A stretch of DNA of 33,483 nt from Bordetella parapertussis (GTDB taxonomy: Bacteria > Pseudomonadota > Gammaproteobacteria > Burkholderiales > SG8-39), in NCBI GenBank assembly GCA_945897475.1, contig CAMDFL010000037.1:1-33483 (forward strand). Direction: 5' to 3'. Numbering within the stretch: position 1 is the stretch's first letter; each line of letters starts with the position of its first letter. The notes beneath the pieces were generated by a model. It saw only the letters and a program-made list of their open reading frames with translations. It was not told where the DNA came from and ran no database searches. The translations under genes were made by a program, and so were the position numbers. Shown here piece after piece: positions 14,401-22,281 of the stretch.

Positions 14401-15711
14401 TCAATCCTGGGATACGGAACCCTGGGATACGGGTAGCTTCCATCCCATGGCTTCGTTATATTCGCGCTTGATTTCCTCTGGCTGACCGACCAGCCAGACA
14501 AATTCGCGCATCCCGGTCGCTCCCAGCGTCGAGTTGGAATTGCGCGCCTCGACGCGATCAAAAGCCTCGCGCGACAAACCGTCGACCAGGGGTTTGCGGC
14601 CGGGCATCGGTAGCGCCAGACATTGATTAGTTTTTTCATCGCGCACCACGGCCTTGGGGTCTCCGCCCGCCTTCACGATATCGATGTCAGCCAGGAAACG
14701 CTTCCTCATCATGGCAATGCCGCGATCAGATAAGCCAAGGTGCTCCCTGGTGCGGTCGGCGATCACACCCTGCCCCACCCAGGCCACATAATCCTGATTC
14801 ATGGTGTGCGAGGTAATCCAGCGCCCGGTTTTCTCGTCGCGAATGGGACTCACCCAGTAGGGAATGCGCTGTTGCACATACGGCTCGCAATCATTCGGCA
14901 CGCGGTTGAAAAACCAGCCAACCGAAAGCGTGGTGTGGTCATCGATCGGAACACGCCATTCGAAGTGGCTGCCCGTAAATAAAGCATGTGGCCAGAGGCA
15001 AACGCGACCGATGGTCCATAGCGGATGCTTTTCATCCGTATCTTCCCGGATGCGCTTGTAGACCATGCCCCAATCGAATTCATCAAATTCAATTTTCAGG
15101 TGCTTGGGACCATAAGGCGCATCCGCGCCCTTTTTCTGCCGGATGCTCCAGTTCTCGTGCATCCATTCGAAATGCACTGGATCAATCGAGTTCTCCTGGC
15201 ACTGAAACCAGTTGCAGGGAATCTCGGAGAACACAATCTGAACGAAACCATTGGCCCAGGTGAAAGGTTCCCAGTTGGGAACCAGGGGTGCAGGCTCCGG
15301 GCCCATATAAGCCCATACAAGACCGGCCTTCGCCGCAGCCCGATACGCACGGACACTGGCTTGTACTTTCCCACGAAATTCCGGACGCGCGGTTTCCTCG
15401 AAGGGCCGCTCAATGGCCTCGCCTTTGTGGTCGTAGAGCCAACCGTGGTAATTGCAGCGCAAACCGACATTTTCGACAAAACCATAGGAAAGATCTGCGC
15501 GACGGTGGGCGCACTGGCGGTCAACCAAACCATAATTTCCGCTGAAATCTTTATAGAGGACAAGGTCTTCGCCCATCAGACGCACCGGCATGACGGGCTT
15601 GTCTTCCAATTGCGCCACCGCCGCGATCGGATGCCAATAGCGGCGCATGAGTTCGCCCATGGGAGTACCCGCGCCTACTTGCGAAAGAATCTGATTGGTT
15701 TCGTTATCCAT
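14401..15711 (-). CDS. Rieske-type aromatic ring-hydroxylating oxygenase alpha subunit
   Basis: Rieske motif CAHRRADLSYGFVENVGLRCNYHGW; mononuclear Fe region DPVHFEWMHENW. Confidence 0.93.
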   Translation of the reverse strand: MDNETNQILSQVGAGTPMGELMRRYWHPIAAVAQLEDKPVMPVRLMGEDLVLYKDFSGNYGLVDRQCAHRRADLSYGFVENVGLRCNYHGWLYDHKGEAIERPFEETARPEFRGKVQASVRAYRAAAKAGLVWAYMGPEPAPLVPNWEPFTWANGFVQIVFSEIPCNWFQCQENSIDPVHFEWMHENWSIRQKKGADAPYGPKHLKIEFDEFDWGMVYKRIREDTDEKHPLWTIGRVCLWPHALFTGSHFEWRVPIDDHTTLSVGWFFNRVPNDCEPYVQQRIPYWVSPIRDEKTGRWITSHTMNQDYVAWVGQGVIADRTREHLGLSDRGIAMMRKRFLADIDIVKAGGDPKAVVRDEKTNQCLALPMPGRKPLVDGLSREAFDRVEARNSNSTLGATGMREFVWLVGQPEEIKREYNEAMGWKLPVSQGSVSQD

Positions 15712-15856
15712 GGCGCATGTGGGGAATCATCAAAGAAAAAGGGTATTGGATAGCGGATCGACTGGGCAAAAACCGTTGCTCTTGGCGCCAAACATGGCGC
15801 TATGCCGCTAACCCACGCATATTATAGCGGGCGATGCCAAAACTTTTCCTGGGCGT

Positions 15857-16234
15857 TCAGTAAACCAGCGTGGCCCACGCCTCATCGAGGGTTCGTCCGA
15901 CGAACGCCGCGGCGCCGCCGATTTCTATGGGCTCTTCGATAAACTGCGAGCGCGTGAGGCCGTGTTCGTCCATGGCCTCGCTACAGGCGAAAAATTTCGC
16001 TCCGTGCTCGGCGGCGTGGCGCATGAATCCCTGCACCGTTTCACGGCCACGCGGTCCCGAGAACAAGGCCGCCGCGACACCCTGTCGCAAGAGCTTAATC
16101 GCGCTTGCCGTGAAATAGATTTCCACCTCAGTGTCCATGGCCGCCGCAGCAGCCGCATGAAAAAACGGCGCGCTGCAAAGATGCGGCGCGTCGGGATTGG
16201 CTGCCCAGAGCAGAATCGCCAGATGCTTTTTCAT
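15857..16234 (-). CDS. DsrE/DsrF-like family protein
   Basis: Small alpha/beta protein with MDTEVEIYFTASAIKLLRQG and AKFFACSEAMDEHGL (DsrE-type Cys). Confidence 0.75.
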   Translation of the reverse strand: MKKHLAILLWAANPDAPHLCSAPFFHAAAAAAMDTEVEIYFTASAIKLLRQGVAAALFSGPRGRETVQGFMRHAAEHGAKFFACSEAMDEHGLTRSQFIEEPIEIGGAAAFVGRTLDEAWATLVY

Positions 16235-16668
16235 CTTATCTCCCGGCCGGTGAAATTATCCAGGTCCATGGCAGCCTCGAAGGCTGAACCAATGGCGTCG
16301 CCGCAAACCAAGTCATCGGGACTCCACTGTCCGACGTTCAATCGAATCAGCCACCCAGCGTGGTAGGGGGCCGATGCGATCAAGGAGGGATCGGCAAGCG
16401 CCGCCGCGTTGGCCGCGATAATCACGCCACTCACCGGAGTTCGCACCGAGACCATGGCTTTGGAGAGCTCCAGCAGACCCACCGCTCTGCCCGCGTCAAT
16501 CTCGGTGCCCACGGCCTTGGGAAGGAAGGCAACAAACTCCACCGCCAGAGCAACGCCAAAGGCAGTTGCACCGATCAACACCACACCGGGGGACTCCTCC
16601 TTCACCCAGACATTGAAATCCACGTGGTAATGGCGGTCCTCGGGAAACTCGCAGCCGCGAACAATCAT
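16231..16668 (-). CDS. Glycine cleavage H-like / LbpA-like lipoyl-carrier protein
   Basis: GVVLIGATAFGVALAVEFVAFLPKAVGTEIDAGRAVGLLELSKAMVSVRTPVSG...SAPYHAGWLIRL aligns with GcvH; candidate lipoyl-Lys in ELSKAM; 4-nt overlap with the DsrE gene. Confidence 0.85.
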   Translation of the reverse strand: MIVRGCEFPEDRHYHVDFNVWVKEESPGVVLIGATAFGVALAVEFVAFLPKAVGTEIDAGRAVGLLELSKAMVSVRTPVSGVIIAANAAALADPSLIASAPYHAGWLIRLNVGQWSPDDLVCGDAIGSAFEAAMDLDNFTGREIR

Positions 16669-16707
16669 CGACGCACTCTGCGCTGGCGACGCGTCATGCC
16701 TGCTAGC

Positions 16708-17718
16708 TCAGCTTTGACCAGGAACGAATAACAAATTCGGGCTGAGACGCTCATAGCCCGATTCATCCATCAGAACATCGAGCGCAAGCGAAGCCAAGTC
16801 GTCGGCGACCGGGTCGGCAAGCGGGTCTTGTTCCCGGTTGAGGATTTTCAGGTAGCCACGGCAATCCTCGCAGGCCTCCGCTTTGATCGCCGTACTACCC
16901 CCTTCAATATGGTAGTAGGCGATCTTTTCGCGCGAGTCGCACTGCGTGCATTGGCCGCGCGAAAAATGCCAATCGGTGCCGCATAAGGTGCAGCAAAGAT
17001 AGCGCGCGCCAGGCACGGGGATATCGATTCGAAGCACGCTTGCCACCGGCGGCGAACCGCATACCGGGCAGATGGCGGGAATATCCAATTTTCGGAACGA
17101 TGCCTCGCCGCAGCCATGGGCGCGCTTGACCCAATGCACTTGCAAGGCCGCACCCAGAAATGCCACCGCGATCGGGTCGAGAGCCGGGTAGTCGAATGCC
17201 AGCAGGCGATCGGCCATGGCATCAAGCTGCGCGCCAGATGCGTATTGCAGTTGCCGAAGCACGGCTTGCGCTGGCGCGGGAGCTGCATCCATCACCTCGT
17301 CGATGATTTCAGCAAGCGCACCGCGCCAGGCGGCATCGCGAGCGCCATCCTTGGGCAGTGGCGGCAAGGCGTGCCGGTGACACAACTCAAGTTTAGTAGC
17401 ATCAATGGCGCTTGATGCAGGATGCGCATCGAGAGCCAATTGCTGTGCTTGCGCGACACGCTCCATCAACAGAAGAAACGACTGGTCCGCATGGCCCGAG
17501 GCCGCCAGGGAAGCAAAGCGACTGGCCCGATCGGAGAAAAAAACGCTTGGGTCAGCCAACCGCAAGGCCGGCGGCTCGCCAACACCACCCGGAACCTCTC
17601 CTTGCGGAACAATTCGGATGGCAGAATTTTGATTAGCGATACTGCCCCCTTTTTCGTCGCCCGGCACTACTTGCCGGTCATTTCGCGATACCAGGCGCGA
17701 TGGTGGGTTTTGGCCCAT
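16708..17718 (-). CDS. fdhE: Formate dehydrogenase accessory protein FdhE
   Basis: CPVCGSPP, CCTLCGTDWHFSRGQCTQCDSREKIAYY, CEDCRGYLKI; position after FDH gamma; annotated start overlaps the gamma gene by 52 nt and could be further downstream. Confidence 0.9.
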   Translation of the reverse strand: MGQNPPSRLVSRNDRQVVPGDEKGGSIANQNSAIRIVPQGEVPGGVGEPPALRLADPSVFFSDRASRFASLAASGHADQSFLLLMERVAQAQQLALDAHPASSAIDATKLELCHRHALPPLPKDGARDAAWRGALAEIIDEVMDAAPAPAQAVLRQLQYASGAQLDAMADRLLAFDYPALDPIAVAFLGAALQVHWVKRAHGCGEASFRKLDIPAICPVCGSPPVASVLRIDIPVPGARYLCCTLCGTDWHFSRGQCTQCDSREKIAYYHIEGGSTAIKAEACEDCRGYLKILNREQDPLADPVADDLASLALDVLMDESGYERLSPNLLFVPGQS

Positions 17719-18281
17719 TTCTCGCTGACGCTACCTCGTACCATGGCTTGTACGCTGCCTTTAACCCAGATGGCTGCATAGATATGCACGATGATCCCAA
17801 GAATCAGCACAAACGCCGATAGCGCATGCACCACCACAGCTACGCGTATGAGATCAATAGGAATTTGCTCAGCCAGATAAGGCCGCCACATCAAAAGGCC
17901 GCTCAACAGCAGCAGGCCCAGGCACACCACAATAGTCCAAAAAAGGTATTTTTGGGCAGCGTTGTATTTGCCGACTTCGGGCAAGCCCTCATCCCGATTC
18001 ATGATGACATCGCGCAAACGCTGTATCCACTTCCTATCGTTATCGGTGATGCGATTGTGATTCCAGAACCGCATCATGATGGCCAGAAAAAAGAATGCCA
18101 TCAGTACGCCCACAAAGGGATGCAGGATGCGGTTCCAGGGTCCGCCGCCCAATATCGAAGCCATGAAATAAAACGACGGATGGAACATCGCCAACCCTGA
18201 ACACGCCGCCACGATAAAGCAGATGGCGACCAGCCAATGGTTGCCGCGTTCGTGCGAGGTATAACGCTGAAGGTCGCTCAT
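17667..18281 (-). CDS. Formate dehydrogenase gamma subunit (cytochrome b556)
   Basis: [34 protein letters not shown], multiple TM helices with His, [33 protein letters not shown]. Confidence 0.93.
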
Positions 18282-19204
18282 GCTGTCTCCTTTTCGCCCT
18301 TGGCACCAGCCCGGCCTTTATCGTCCCTGTCGTTATCGTCACCATCCTTATCGGCCCCACCCTCATCGACTTCCTTGGGACCCACGGTGACGTAGTGCAG
18401 GAATCCACCCAATACCGACAGACCCAGGATTGCGGATGCAATCGGCTTGGTGATGCCCTTCCAGAACGACACCATCGGGCTGATCCGGGGATCTTTGGGC
18501 AGGCCCTCCAATTCCGGTTTGTCGGCGTGTTTCATCACATACATGACGTGGGTTCCGCCCACGCCTTGCGGATCGTACAAACCGGCATCCTTGAATCCAC
18601 GCTCCTTCAACTCTCCGACGCGACGCTCGGCGTAGCCCAGCATGTCTTCTTTGGTGCCAAAACCGATTGCCCCGGTCGGGCAGGCCTTGACACAAGCGGG
18701 CGCCTGGCCTACCGCGACGCGGTCCGAACACAGCGTACATTTGTAGGCCTTGTTATCCTTCTTCGATATTCGCGGCACATCGAACGGGCAGCCTGCCACG
18801 CAATAACCGCAGCCAATGCAGTTATCGGAAATGAAATCGACGATGCCGTTCGAATATTTCACAATGGCCCCTGGCGCCGGACACGCCTTCAGGCAACCCG
18901 GGTCGGCGCAATGCATGCAGCCGTCCTTTCGGATCAGCCACTCCAGATTGTTGGGGGTGGTCTCAACCTCGAAGAAACGCATTACTGTCCACGAATTCGG
19001 GGTGAGGTCGGTGGGGTTGTCATACACCCCGATGTTGGTCCCAATTTCGTCGCGCAAGTCGTTCCAGTTCATGCAGGCGACCTGGCAGGCCTTGCAGCCT
19101 ATGCATTTCGATTCATCGATGAGTTTCGCGACTTGCGCAGTCTGCCTCACTCCCGGCGAAGGAGTGGTAGTTGCCGAACGCGCCATGATATCCAGTGCTG
19201 ACAT
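18278..19204 (-). CDS. Formate dehydrogenase beta (iron-sulfur) subunit
   Basis: Four ferredoxin-type Cys clusters ([66 protein letters not shown]) and C-terminal TM helix. Confidence 0.95.
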
Positions 19205-19212
19205 GTCCCCTC

Positions 19213-22200
19213 CTAGGCTTTTTCGATGTTGACGAGAAACGCCTTGTACTCCGGCGTCTGCGAATTGGCATCACCCACATACGGCGTCAAGGCGTTGGCG
19301 AGATAACCATTTTGCGTCACCCCCTTGAAGCCCCAGTGGATCGGGATGCCCACGGTGTGCACTTTCTTACCGTTCACCTCCAGCGCGCGGATGCGTTTGG
19401 TGACCACGCAAGCCGCCTTGACCTCGCCGCGGTTGGATTTAACACGCACCATCTGGCCATTCTTGATGCCTTTTTCCTTCGCCAGTTCCTCGCCAATCTC
19501 CACAAACGGCGCGGGTTGAACGATGGCGTTGGAACGTGCGTGCTTAGTCCAGAAGTGCAGATGTTCGGCCAGGCGATAAGTGGTCGCAGCGTAGGGAAAT
19601 TCGGCGGCTTTGCCGAAAGCCTCCATATCGCCCTTATAGACCCGTGCGGTGGGATTGCTGATCGCCTTTGGATTGGTCGGGCACATCAGGTTGACACCTA
19701 CCGGATTCTCGAACGGCTCGTAGTGCTCCGGGAACGGGCCTTCGCTCATGCCGATTGCGTACAACCGCGCCACGCCTTCCGGATTCATGATGAAGGCACC
19801 CACATTTTCAGCAGGCGCTGCATCGGCGCGCATATCGGGAACGTCCGCGCCGGTCCAGCGTGTGCCATCCCATCGCATATAGCTTCGCGAGCTGTCCCAG
19901 GGTTTGCCATCGGCGTCCGCCGAAGCGCGGTTGTAGAGGATGCGGCGGTTGGCTGGCCAGGAAAATCCCCATCCCGAATACACACCCAAGCCCGATGGAT
20001 CGGATGTATCGCGGCGCGCGGTCATATTACCGGCCGGACTCCACGAACCGCAGTAGATCCAGTTGCCGCAACTGGTCGAGCCGTCGGCTTGCAGCAGAGC
20101 GAAAGCGGGCATTTGCGCGCCCGCGGGCACCAGCACCTTTTTGGGATCCTTCGGGTCCAGCACATCAGCCAGCGCCCGCCCGTTGATTTCGCGCAGCACT
20201 TCCTCGGGCGTCGGCATATCGGCCTTGAGATAGGGCCAAGCCATATTGAGTATGGGTTCGGGCAGCTTGCCGCCGTCCTTGCGATACAGATCCCTCAGTT
20301 TCACGAATAGCTTGGCGATGATTTCCGAATCAACCTTGGCCTCACCGGGGGGTTCCACGGCGCGCTCTTTCCAGGCAATCACCCGGCTGGAATTGGTGAA
20401 GGTTCCGGCTTCCTCGGCAAAACAGCTGGTCGGCAGACGGAACACCTCGGTCTGGATTTTCGCTGGATCCACGTCGTTCAATGGACCGTAGTTTTTCCAG
20501 AACTCTGAGGTCTCGGTGGCCAGCGGGTCCAACACCACCAGAAACTTCAATTTGGCGAATGCCTCGCTTTGTTTCTTTTTATTCGGCAACGCCGCCAAAG
20601 GATTGAACCCCTGGCACAGGAATCCACTCATGCGCCCCTGATGCATGCGCTCGAAGATCGCCAGTACGTCGTAGGCGCCATCGCGCTTTGGCAGCCAGTC
20701 GTAGGCAAAATCATTCTCCTTGGTGGCCGCAGCGCCATACCAGGATTTCATCAGGCTGGTGTGCCACTTGGGAAAATTCTGCGTGAAAGTCATCTGATTC
20801 GGACGCAACGGCTTGCCGGTGCGCGCGGCCAAGTAGGCCTCGCGCGTCACATCGCCATCGCCGGGCGCACCCAGATATCCGGGCAGCACCTCCGAGTACA
20901 GCGCCATATCGGTGATGCCCTGCACATTAGCGTGGCCGCGAAGCGCGTTGACGCCGCCGCCGGGCCGGCCCATGTTGCCGAGCAACAACTGGATCATCGC
21001 CATGGTGCGGATGTTCTGCGAACCCACCGAATGCTGAGTCCAACCCAAGGCATACAGGATGGTCATCACCTTGTTGGCCGCCGAGGTCGAGGCGATTTGT
21101 TCAGCCACTTTCAAGAACGCGTCTTTTGGCGTGCCGGTGATTTTACTCACCAGCTCGGGGGTGTAGCGCGAATAGTGTTTTTTCAGTTGCTGAAATACGC
21201 AACGCGGGTTTTGCAGGGTGTCGTCAACCACGACGAAACCATCTTTGCCCAGCTCGTAGCCCCAGGTGGCTTTGTCGTAAGTACGCTTGGCCTCGTCGTA
21301 GCCGCTGAAAAAACCGTTTTCGTAGTTGAAACCCTCTTTGGTGAGGAAGCTGGCATCGGTGTTTATCTTGATGTAATCGTGATGCAGCTTGTCATTAGCA
21401 AATAAATAATTGATTACCCCGCCCAGGAAAGCGATGTCGGTGCCCACGCGCAGCGGCGCGTAGAGATCGGCGACCGCAGCGGAGCGCGTAAACCGCGGGT
21501 CAACAACGACCAGCTTCGCCTTCCTTTGCTGCATTGCCTCGGTCACCCACTTGAAACCACAGGGGTGGGCTTCCGCGGCGTTTCCGCCCATCACGAGAAC
21601 CAGATCGGCATTCTTGATGTCGACCCAGTTGTTGGTCATCGCGCCTCTGCCGAATGTGGGGCCCAAACTGGACACCGTGGGTGCGTGTCATATTCGTGCC
21701 TGAGTATCGAAGGCAACCATTCCCAAGCCGCGCGCGACCTTGACACTTAAATAGCCCGATTCGTTCGAGGCAGCACTCGATGCCAGAAAGCCGACGGTGT
21801 TCCAGCGATTGACGGTTGTGCCCTTGTCGTTCTTTTCGACAAGATTCTTATCGCGATCATCCTTCATATGGCGGGCGATGCGATTCAAGGCATCGTCCCA
21901 GGAGAGGCGCTTCCACTCGTTGGAACCCGGCGCGCGCACCTCCGGGTAACGCAGCCGATTCGGGCTTTGAATCATATCGAGCACGCCCGCGCCCTTGGCG
22001 CATAAGGTTCCGCGATTCACCGGATTATCAGGATCGCCTTCAACGTGAATGATGGAAGTCTTCACGTTTTTCGATTTATCACCCAGGGTGTACATGATCA
22101 TGCCGCAACTCACCGAACAATACGGGCAGGTACTGCGCGTCTCCGTAGTGCGCGCCAGCTTGTAGCCGCGTACATCGTTGGCCATGGCCGATGGGGCATA

Positions 22201-22281
22201 CCCCATCATGGCAAGGCTTGAGCCTCCCATGCCGCCTGCGCAAATTCTAAAAAACTGTCTGCGTGAAACTTTGACGTCCAT
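19213..22281 (-). CDS. Formate dehydrogenase alpha subunit, selenocysteine-containing, Tat-exported (UGA readthrough joins ORFs 21688..22281 and 19213..21675)
   Basis: Tat signal [12 protein letters not shown]; 4Fe-4[11 protein letters not shown]...GTLCAKGAG; reading through UGA gives [38 protein letters not shown], matching the FdnG/FdoG Sec region; same frame on both sides. Confidence 0.95.
21659..21675 (-). promoter_or_regulatory. Putative bacterial SECIS apical hairpin (UCC-AGUUU-GGG)
   Basis: AGU at nt 22-24 counted from U of UGA, the same offset as GGU/AGU in E. coli fdhF/fdnG SECIS as remembered; short flanking stem. Confidence 0.65.
21688..21690 (-). other. In-frame UGA selenocysteine codon (codon 198)
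   Basis: Minus-strand ATA TGA CAC GCA CCC ACG GTG TCC; context identical in register to other FDH Sec sites. Confidence 0.94.

Follow-up and report, generated by a model that had tools for sequence, protein, structure and literature searches.

A lipoyl H-like protein and a DsrE-like protein encoded as a recurrent pair in selenocysteine formate dehydrogenase operons

Lipoyl proteins of the H type are recognised in two roles, one in glycine cleavage and the other in sHdr sulfur oxidation. The locus examined here raises the question of what such a protein, paired with a DsrE-like sulfur carrier, does behind the genes of a formate dehydrogenase (FDH). In the window, meaning the whole 33,483-nucleotide stretch of DNA that was analysed, the minus strand carries fdhA/fdnG for the FDH alpha subunit (19213..22281), fdhB/fdnH for the Fe-S beta subunit (18278..19204), fdhC/fdnI for the cytochrome b gamma subunit (17667..18281) and fdhE for the FDH accessory protein (16708..17718, with an alternative start possibly at 17667), the last identified by TIGR01562 (244 bits against a cut-off of 188). 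The fdhA frame is split by one in-frame TGA for selenocysteine (Sec) at 21688-21690, codon 198 of the frame read. Beginning 39 nt past fdhE, and likewise on the minus strand, are the H-like gene (16231..16668), encoding 145 aa with the lipoyl Lys70, and dsrE (15857..16234), encoding 125 aa with Cys84. Both open reading frames were found where the first-pass annotation had placed them, and so was the 4-nt overlap between them: the H stop and dsrE start share an ATGA (context GATAAGATGAAA), with the dsrE ATG within the TGA of the H gene. A promoter and terminator scan of 15500-17000 gave no signal above shuffled sequence. A Rieske-oxygenase gene lies 145 nt downstream of dsrE; since the sister species G001, which retains the fdhABCE-H-dsrE order, has a thiolase gene directly after dsrE instead, the Rieske-oxygenase gene was deduced to be outside the unit.

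The H-like protein was assigned to the GCV_H family by PF01597 (70 bits against a gathering score of 22). The lipoyl lysine and the H-protein fold that mark GcvH are present, and the AlphaFold model (pLDDT 89.6) had GcvH structures as its top PDB matches, with a TM-score of 0.79 (by query length) and 27% identity to 1onl. The protein nevertheless scored under the GcvH equivalog cut-offs, at 49.5 against 115.85 for TIGR00527 and 70.4 against 117 for NF002270. The phylogeny proposed in the first-pass annotation was computed from 151 H-type proteins over 148 columns, grouped by the motif around the lipoyl lysine, and its deep forks are weak. In this tree 12 GcvH proteins formed a 100/100 clade that excludes the window's protein, 18 sHdr LbpA proteins of one type formed another 100/100 clade, and the 78 FDH/Sec-linked H proteins, the window's included, lay outside both. 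The four labels required 3 changes together, the minimum possible. The 78 were not a single clade in the free tree (2 changes), and a single clade was not rejected (AU p 0.338); the divergent proteins of L093 and L182-L184 attached weakly (75/69) to the GcvH branch, where the program flagged possible long-branch attraction.

The residues bearing on function were then compared. Lys70, picked correctly as the lipoyl site in the first reading, is invariant in 151/151 H-type proteins and 78/78 of the FDH/Sec-linked ones. According to the available text of PMC6067878, sHdr LbpA has two conserved cysteines, N- and C-terminal. The C-terminal one corresponds to no conserved column in the 78 FDH/Sec-linked proteins, and the N-terminal one is retained in 34% of them, no cysteine column exceeding 50%; the window's protein keeps Cys6 and has no C-terminal cysteine. 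The earlier claims that this is not a glycine-cleavage H protein, and that it is related to sHdr LbpA yet distinct, are thus borne out by its position outside housekeeping GcvH and by LbpA being its nearest outside group, separate in the tree. Judged from these alignments, the FDH/Sec-linked H proteins would be a third group beside GcvH and sHdr LbpA.

The DsrE-like protein matched PF02635 at 41 bits against 22.7. Foldseek with its model (pLDDT 94.5) returned DsrE/DsrF proteins as the best matches (2qs7, 3mc3), followed by DsrEFH and TusBCD. Both the fold and the conserved cysteine of the DsrE/F family are present, and Cys84, also correctly singled out in the first reading, is kept in 76/76 relatives. 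The 125 residues hold a single DsrE domain rather than the two-domain TusA-like plus DsrE-like architecture of YedF/FdhU; TIGR03527 was not found for this protein among the matches listed, and the context of Cys84 is ACSEA, not CGXC. Close DsrE relatives were also seen alone beside housekeeping genes, with no H, FDH or sel gene, in L111, L114, L116, L120, L122, L126 and L149.

The window's genome, G000 (92% complete, 296 contigs), encodes one GCV_H protein, which is the window's H-like protein, and no other H protein. No PF02347 (GDC-P) match for GcvP was found in G000 (10/14 controls positive), nor was a match for HdrB1 of sHdr, in a search run with no positive control. The first-pass observation that gcvT, gcvP and lpd are missing from the window therefore extends, for the P protein, to the genome. 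With neither GcvP, a second H protein nor HdrB1, neither known H-protein job seems available, and the genome retains an H-type protein although the searches found neither of the pathways known to use one. By comparison, G001 has a separate gcvT-H-P cluster besides its FDH-linked H gene. G000 also carries LipA, SelB and SelD, and FdhD on another contig, by which the possibility that FdhD is missing and replaced was ruled out. The SelB of this genome (L180, G000:C83, 7642-9558, minus) is very divergent, with an end branch of 2.3 on the SelB tree, and has neither selA nor FDH genes as neighbours, even though Sec is required by the window's fdhA.

The surroundings of the pair were surveyed with an alignment of 12 DsrE proteins, scanned against 84,980 species genomes, the best 80 of 208 matches being taken as L100-L179. 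Genes were called with a codon-usage gene finder, as ORF picking by length gave false genes in GC-rich loci. The finder under-calls low-GC loci (few or no useful genes in L187, L219 and L220), and the absence of the pair from the L219 and L220 genomes is taken from genome-wide searches rather than gene calls. Among these best 80 of 208 matches, H and DsrE were both called in 65 loci and 13 were DsrE-only with unrelated surroundings; in L115 H was called and DsrE uncalled, and in L112 the stretch ends before H. As the query was DsrE, the loci cannot show how frequently the H gene occurs without it. With 11 loci from other searches the pair set came to 76, or 72 distinct pair loci among the matches listed after removal of 4 duplicates. 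FDH or Sec genes adjoin the pair in 68 of these 72: 45 have FDH and sel genes, 12 FDH only (including the window, where the pair is by fdhE and selAB is not in the stretch) and 11 sel only. Four have neither, namely L103, which begins at a contig edge, and the exceptions L146, L154 and L177, where H-DsrE occurs with no FDH or sel genes in the stretch; contig ends account for some of the partial loci.

The typical order is fdhA-fdhB-fdhC-fdhE-selA-selB-H-dsrE, SelA and SelB being identified by Pfam in one locus and by similarity in the others. Among the matches listed the partners share a strand in 71/72 pairs, and 54 of the 71 overlap, 40 by exactly 4 nt. Matching loci occur in genera including Thauera, Zoogloea, Hydrogenophaga, Variovorax, Roseateles, Rubrivivax, Ottowia, Sulfuritalea and Sulfurisoma. 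The adjacency is thus widespread and not unique to this genome. Given its presence in 11 families of the order, and the overlap in most of the same-strand pairs listed, it was concluded not to be due to chance, and the coupling with DsrE proposed in the first reading is supported. Beyond the order, DsrE profile matches were present in 50 of 274 class genomes, and 29 DsrE loci (besides the window's) had no H-like gene within about 1.5 kb; a plasmid search gave only three Acidithiobacillus matches, in another context. The gene content of several environmental MAGs suggests mislabelling as Bordetella parapertussis (L101-L103, L106 and L112) or, for L151, as Chitinophaga pinensis.

Among the neighbours, a YdjA-like nitroreductase gene is near the pair in 15/76 loci of the matches listed, directly after dsrE in 14; in E. 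coli, ydjA adjoins selD. Genes for mobA, moeA and a tungstate transporter were also observed, some names resting on sequence reading alone. No selD was seen in the pair clusters, no LipS1 or LipS2, which together with sLpl modify sHdr LbpA in place of LipB/LipA, was called beside the 72 pairs of the matches listed, and no hdr-like genes occur at the pair loci. In L080, L094, L101, L103-L106, L108 and L112 the pair or dsrE is followed by a tungstate-type ABC transporter (tupBCA by similarity), and in some of the tungstate-transporter loci a gene for a PepSY membrane protein separates fdhE from the H gene. An FCSD_central flavoprotein, flavocytochrome-c sulfide-dehydrogenase-like (L092, 4245-5579), is upstream of the pair in 9/76 loci, mostly between selA and selB, and a transglutaminase-like protein is present in 4 pair loci. 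A 405-aa protein lies between selA and selB in L148 (6065-7282) and 2 more loci; its weak, below-cut-off TusA-like N-terminus and AurF-like part would make it a possible further sulfur carrier.

Co-occurrence was analysed in 399 genomes of the window's order, of which 106 had SelB over the cut-off, 84 had FdhE at E <= 1e-20 and 71 had both. A non-sHdr H-DsrE pair was present in 21 genomes from 11 families, all of them SelB+FdhE+ (21/71 against 0/328 others; Fisher p 1e-17, relatedness ignored). The pair was absent from the 35 SelB+FdhE-, the 13 FdhE+SelB- and the 280 genomes with neither. The 21 were assembled from search lists with limits of 1e-14 and 1e-12, and because the H proteins of G159, G240 and G470 were noticed only in SelB neighbourhoods, doubly divergent pairs could be missed elsewhere; in G340 and G472, also counted among the 21, other genes or a longer gap lie between or before the partners. 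The pair was deduced to be dispensable, as 50 of the 71 SelB+FdhE+ genomes do without it. Ten of the 13 FdhE+SelB- genomes were inspected further: seven have cysteine at the Sec position (L215, L216, L217, L219-L222) and for three the stretch contains no FdhA. TGA stands at all of the remaining 47 readable FdhA sites, whether or not the locus has the pair. None of the 7 Cys-FDH genomes has the pair, although the contrast for the FdhE+SelB- genomes (0/13) is small (p 0.03, relatedness ignored). On a tree of 81 SelB proteins, which are not a random draw, the pair label changes 7 times, at least 4 of these forced by starred branches, so its association with SelB and FDH is not one event. The SelB proteins of SelB+FdhE- genomes (L203-L206, L208-L211) form a separate clade (SH-aLRT 95), and several adjoin a protein of about 300 aa. 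The tie to Sec-FDH asserted in the first reading is therefore upheld by the in-frame TGA of fdhA, by all 21 pair genomes being SelB+FdhE+ and by the lack of the pair in Cys-FDH genomes.

The recurrence of the pair in Sec-FDH operons suggests that the enzyme has a helper, so far undescribed, for handling sulfur or selenium. We tentatively interpret it, at somewhat under an even chance, as a dedicated, optional accessory of the membrane FDH-N/O type of Sec-FDH that would act as a chalcogen relay; the linkage is observed, and the mechanism is one that we infer from sequence. DsrE would carry sulfur or selenium on Cys84, in the form of a persulfide or perselenide. Its H-like partner would bear lipoate on Lys70, presumably attached through LipB and LipA; this route is an assumption because, according to the available text of PMC6067878, neither the E. 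coli nor the B. subtilis machinery lipoylates sHdr LbpA. The lipoyl group could then serve as a swinging dithiol, taking over or reductively freeing the DsrE-borne atom near the site of FDH synthesis.

Two end points are conceivable for this chalcogen relay, with a slight lean towards the former: selenide supply for SelD/SelA during Sec-FDH production, or reductive insertion or repair of the Mo/W sulfido ligand. The selenium end point is favoured by the Sec-only distribution, the position behind selB and the YdjA-like nitroreductase in 15/76 loci of the matches listed, and it has a precedent in YedF/FdhU, whose TusA-like and DsrE-like domains are linked to Se-dependent FDH in Campylobacter (PMC5322559, in the part available). 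Against it are the 35 SelB+FdhE- genomes that have no pair, a result which also weakens a general selenium-supply reading, the lack of selD in the clusters and the 12 FDH-only loci with no selAB in the stretch. The sulfido ligand of FDH is described, in the accessible portion of PMC12140954, as lost in O2 and as requiring a reductant for its chemical insertion with sulfide. The mobA, moeA and tungstate transporter neighbours favour this second end point, against which stand the FdhD already present in G000 and the Cys-FDH genomes that have no pair. Cys-FDH is taken to need the sulfido ligand too.

The first-pass annotation had offered a sulfur-relay or redox module for FDH, or a lipoyl-linked formate/C1 module. 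The tie to Sec-FDH holds, and for bis-MGD sulfuration FdhD is available in any case; the formate/C1 module found no support. A reading confined to FDH sulfuration was checked by FdhD presence, the Cys-FDH contrast and the neighbours, and FdhD is there. The data point to a Sec-specific role, in selenium or chalcogen handling, as at least as well indicated as bis-MGD sulfuration. In one form, which we regard as possible although rather unlikely, the role would be a lipoyl-dependent selenium relay, with a perselenide on Cys84 of DsrE and the lipoylated H-like protein freeing selenide for SelD/SelA or guarding the nascent FdhA selenol.

The distribution on which the chalcogen relay rests, Sec-only and optional, would also suit protection or repair, an unlikely alternative in which the lipoyl dithiol keeps the FdhA selenol/selenenyl or the Mo/W site reduced on O2 encounter and DsrE returns lost sulfide, a safeguard that only the Sec enzymes, as the more O2-labile ones, would require. 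The aerobic or facultative lifestyle of Hydrogenophaga, Variovorax and Zoogloea counts for it. The catalytic subunit of FDH-N should, however, face the outer side of the membrane, so that any action of a pair in the cytoplasm would have to precede export. Loss of the FDH sulfido ligand in O2 (PMC12140954, available part) is consistent with protection as well. That the FDH-sel blocks gain or lose the pair, as deduced from the 7 changes on the SelB tree (at least 4 forced), would be expected if the pair had an unrelated job and were merely carried on a mobile FDH-sel block, and L146, L154 and L177, beside neither FDH nor sel, agree with this. Such hitch-hiking is nonetheless quite improbable, since among the matches listed the pair stays with FDH when sel is elsewhere (12 loci) and with sel when FDH is not in the stretch (11), and since it is absent from the 328 genomes that are not SelB+FdhE+.

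The two known H-protein jobs fare worse. A moonlighting or relic sHdr LbpA-DsrE pair for sulfur oxidation would account for the adjacency of the two genes, as in sHdr loci, and for LbpA being the nearest outside group. It is very unlikely given the missing second H protein and HdrB1 (no positive control) in G000, the loss of the second conserved LbpA cysteine, the FDH/Sec linkage in 68/72 loci with no LipS1/LipS2 called beside the 72 pairs (both among the matches listed) and the separate sHdr locus that G436 also has (L098). An ordinary GcvH for glycine cleavage, here by chance, is hardly credible: the GCV_H fold and the sole H protein in G000 would fit, but the genome has no GcvP, the protein fails the GcvH cut-offs and is excluded from the 100/100 GcvH clade, and G001 carries both the FDH-linked H and a gcvT-H-P cluster.

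If the preferred chalcogen relay is correct, the third H-type group would implicate lipoate in the handling of chalcogens for a selenoenzyme. The selenium relay, if true, would give H-type lipoyl proteins a third function in the cell and, to our knowledge, their first in selenium metabolism. The questions touched are by what route SelD obtains selenide and how FDH acquires, and later recovers, its labile sulfide. A two-gene cassette that some Sec-FDH operons have and others lack allows both to be tested directly. The pair could also help the production of active FDH for CO2 reduction.

No description of the pair with FDH or sel genes was found in the open-licence literature, which is not proof of absence, and comparison was made with systems containing related parts. 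The closest is sHdr, in which, in the available parts of PMC6067878 and PMC10332631, a GcvH-like lipoyl carrier adjoins a DsrE-family protein. Its LbpA proteins are the nearest sequences outside the FDH/Sec set, at about 42% identity to those of the same family. They differ from the FDH/Sec-linked proteins in the C-terminal cysteine, which the latter lack, and in the N-terminal one, kept in only 34%; moreover, no hdr, tusA or lipS genes lie beside the FDH/Sec-linked pair, which is separate in the tree and restricted to SelB+FdhE+ genomes in the 399-genome sample. As both the C-terminal cysteine and the sHdr linkage are lacking, the pair was not counted as sHdr LbpA. GcvH has the fold (1onl, TM-score 0.79) and the lipoyl lysine in common with the H-like protein, which differs in its 27% identity to 1onl, its place outside the clade and the lack of GcvP in G000. 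YedF/FdhU likewise has a DsrE-like domain tied to Se metabolism and Se-dependent FDH, together with a CGXC motif (PMC5322559, available part), unlike the window's DsrE, which has no TusA domain, no such motif at Cys84 (ACSEA) and a lipoyl partner instead. FdhD-IscS sulfuration of bis-MGD is a sulfur relay serving FDH, as is proposed for the pair, although the families are unrelated and FdhD is separately present in G000. The parts thus come from known families, and what is new, relative to the open-licence literature, is the combination and the group of H proteins.
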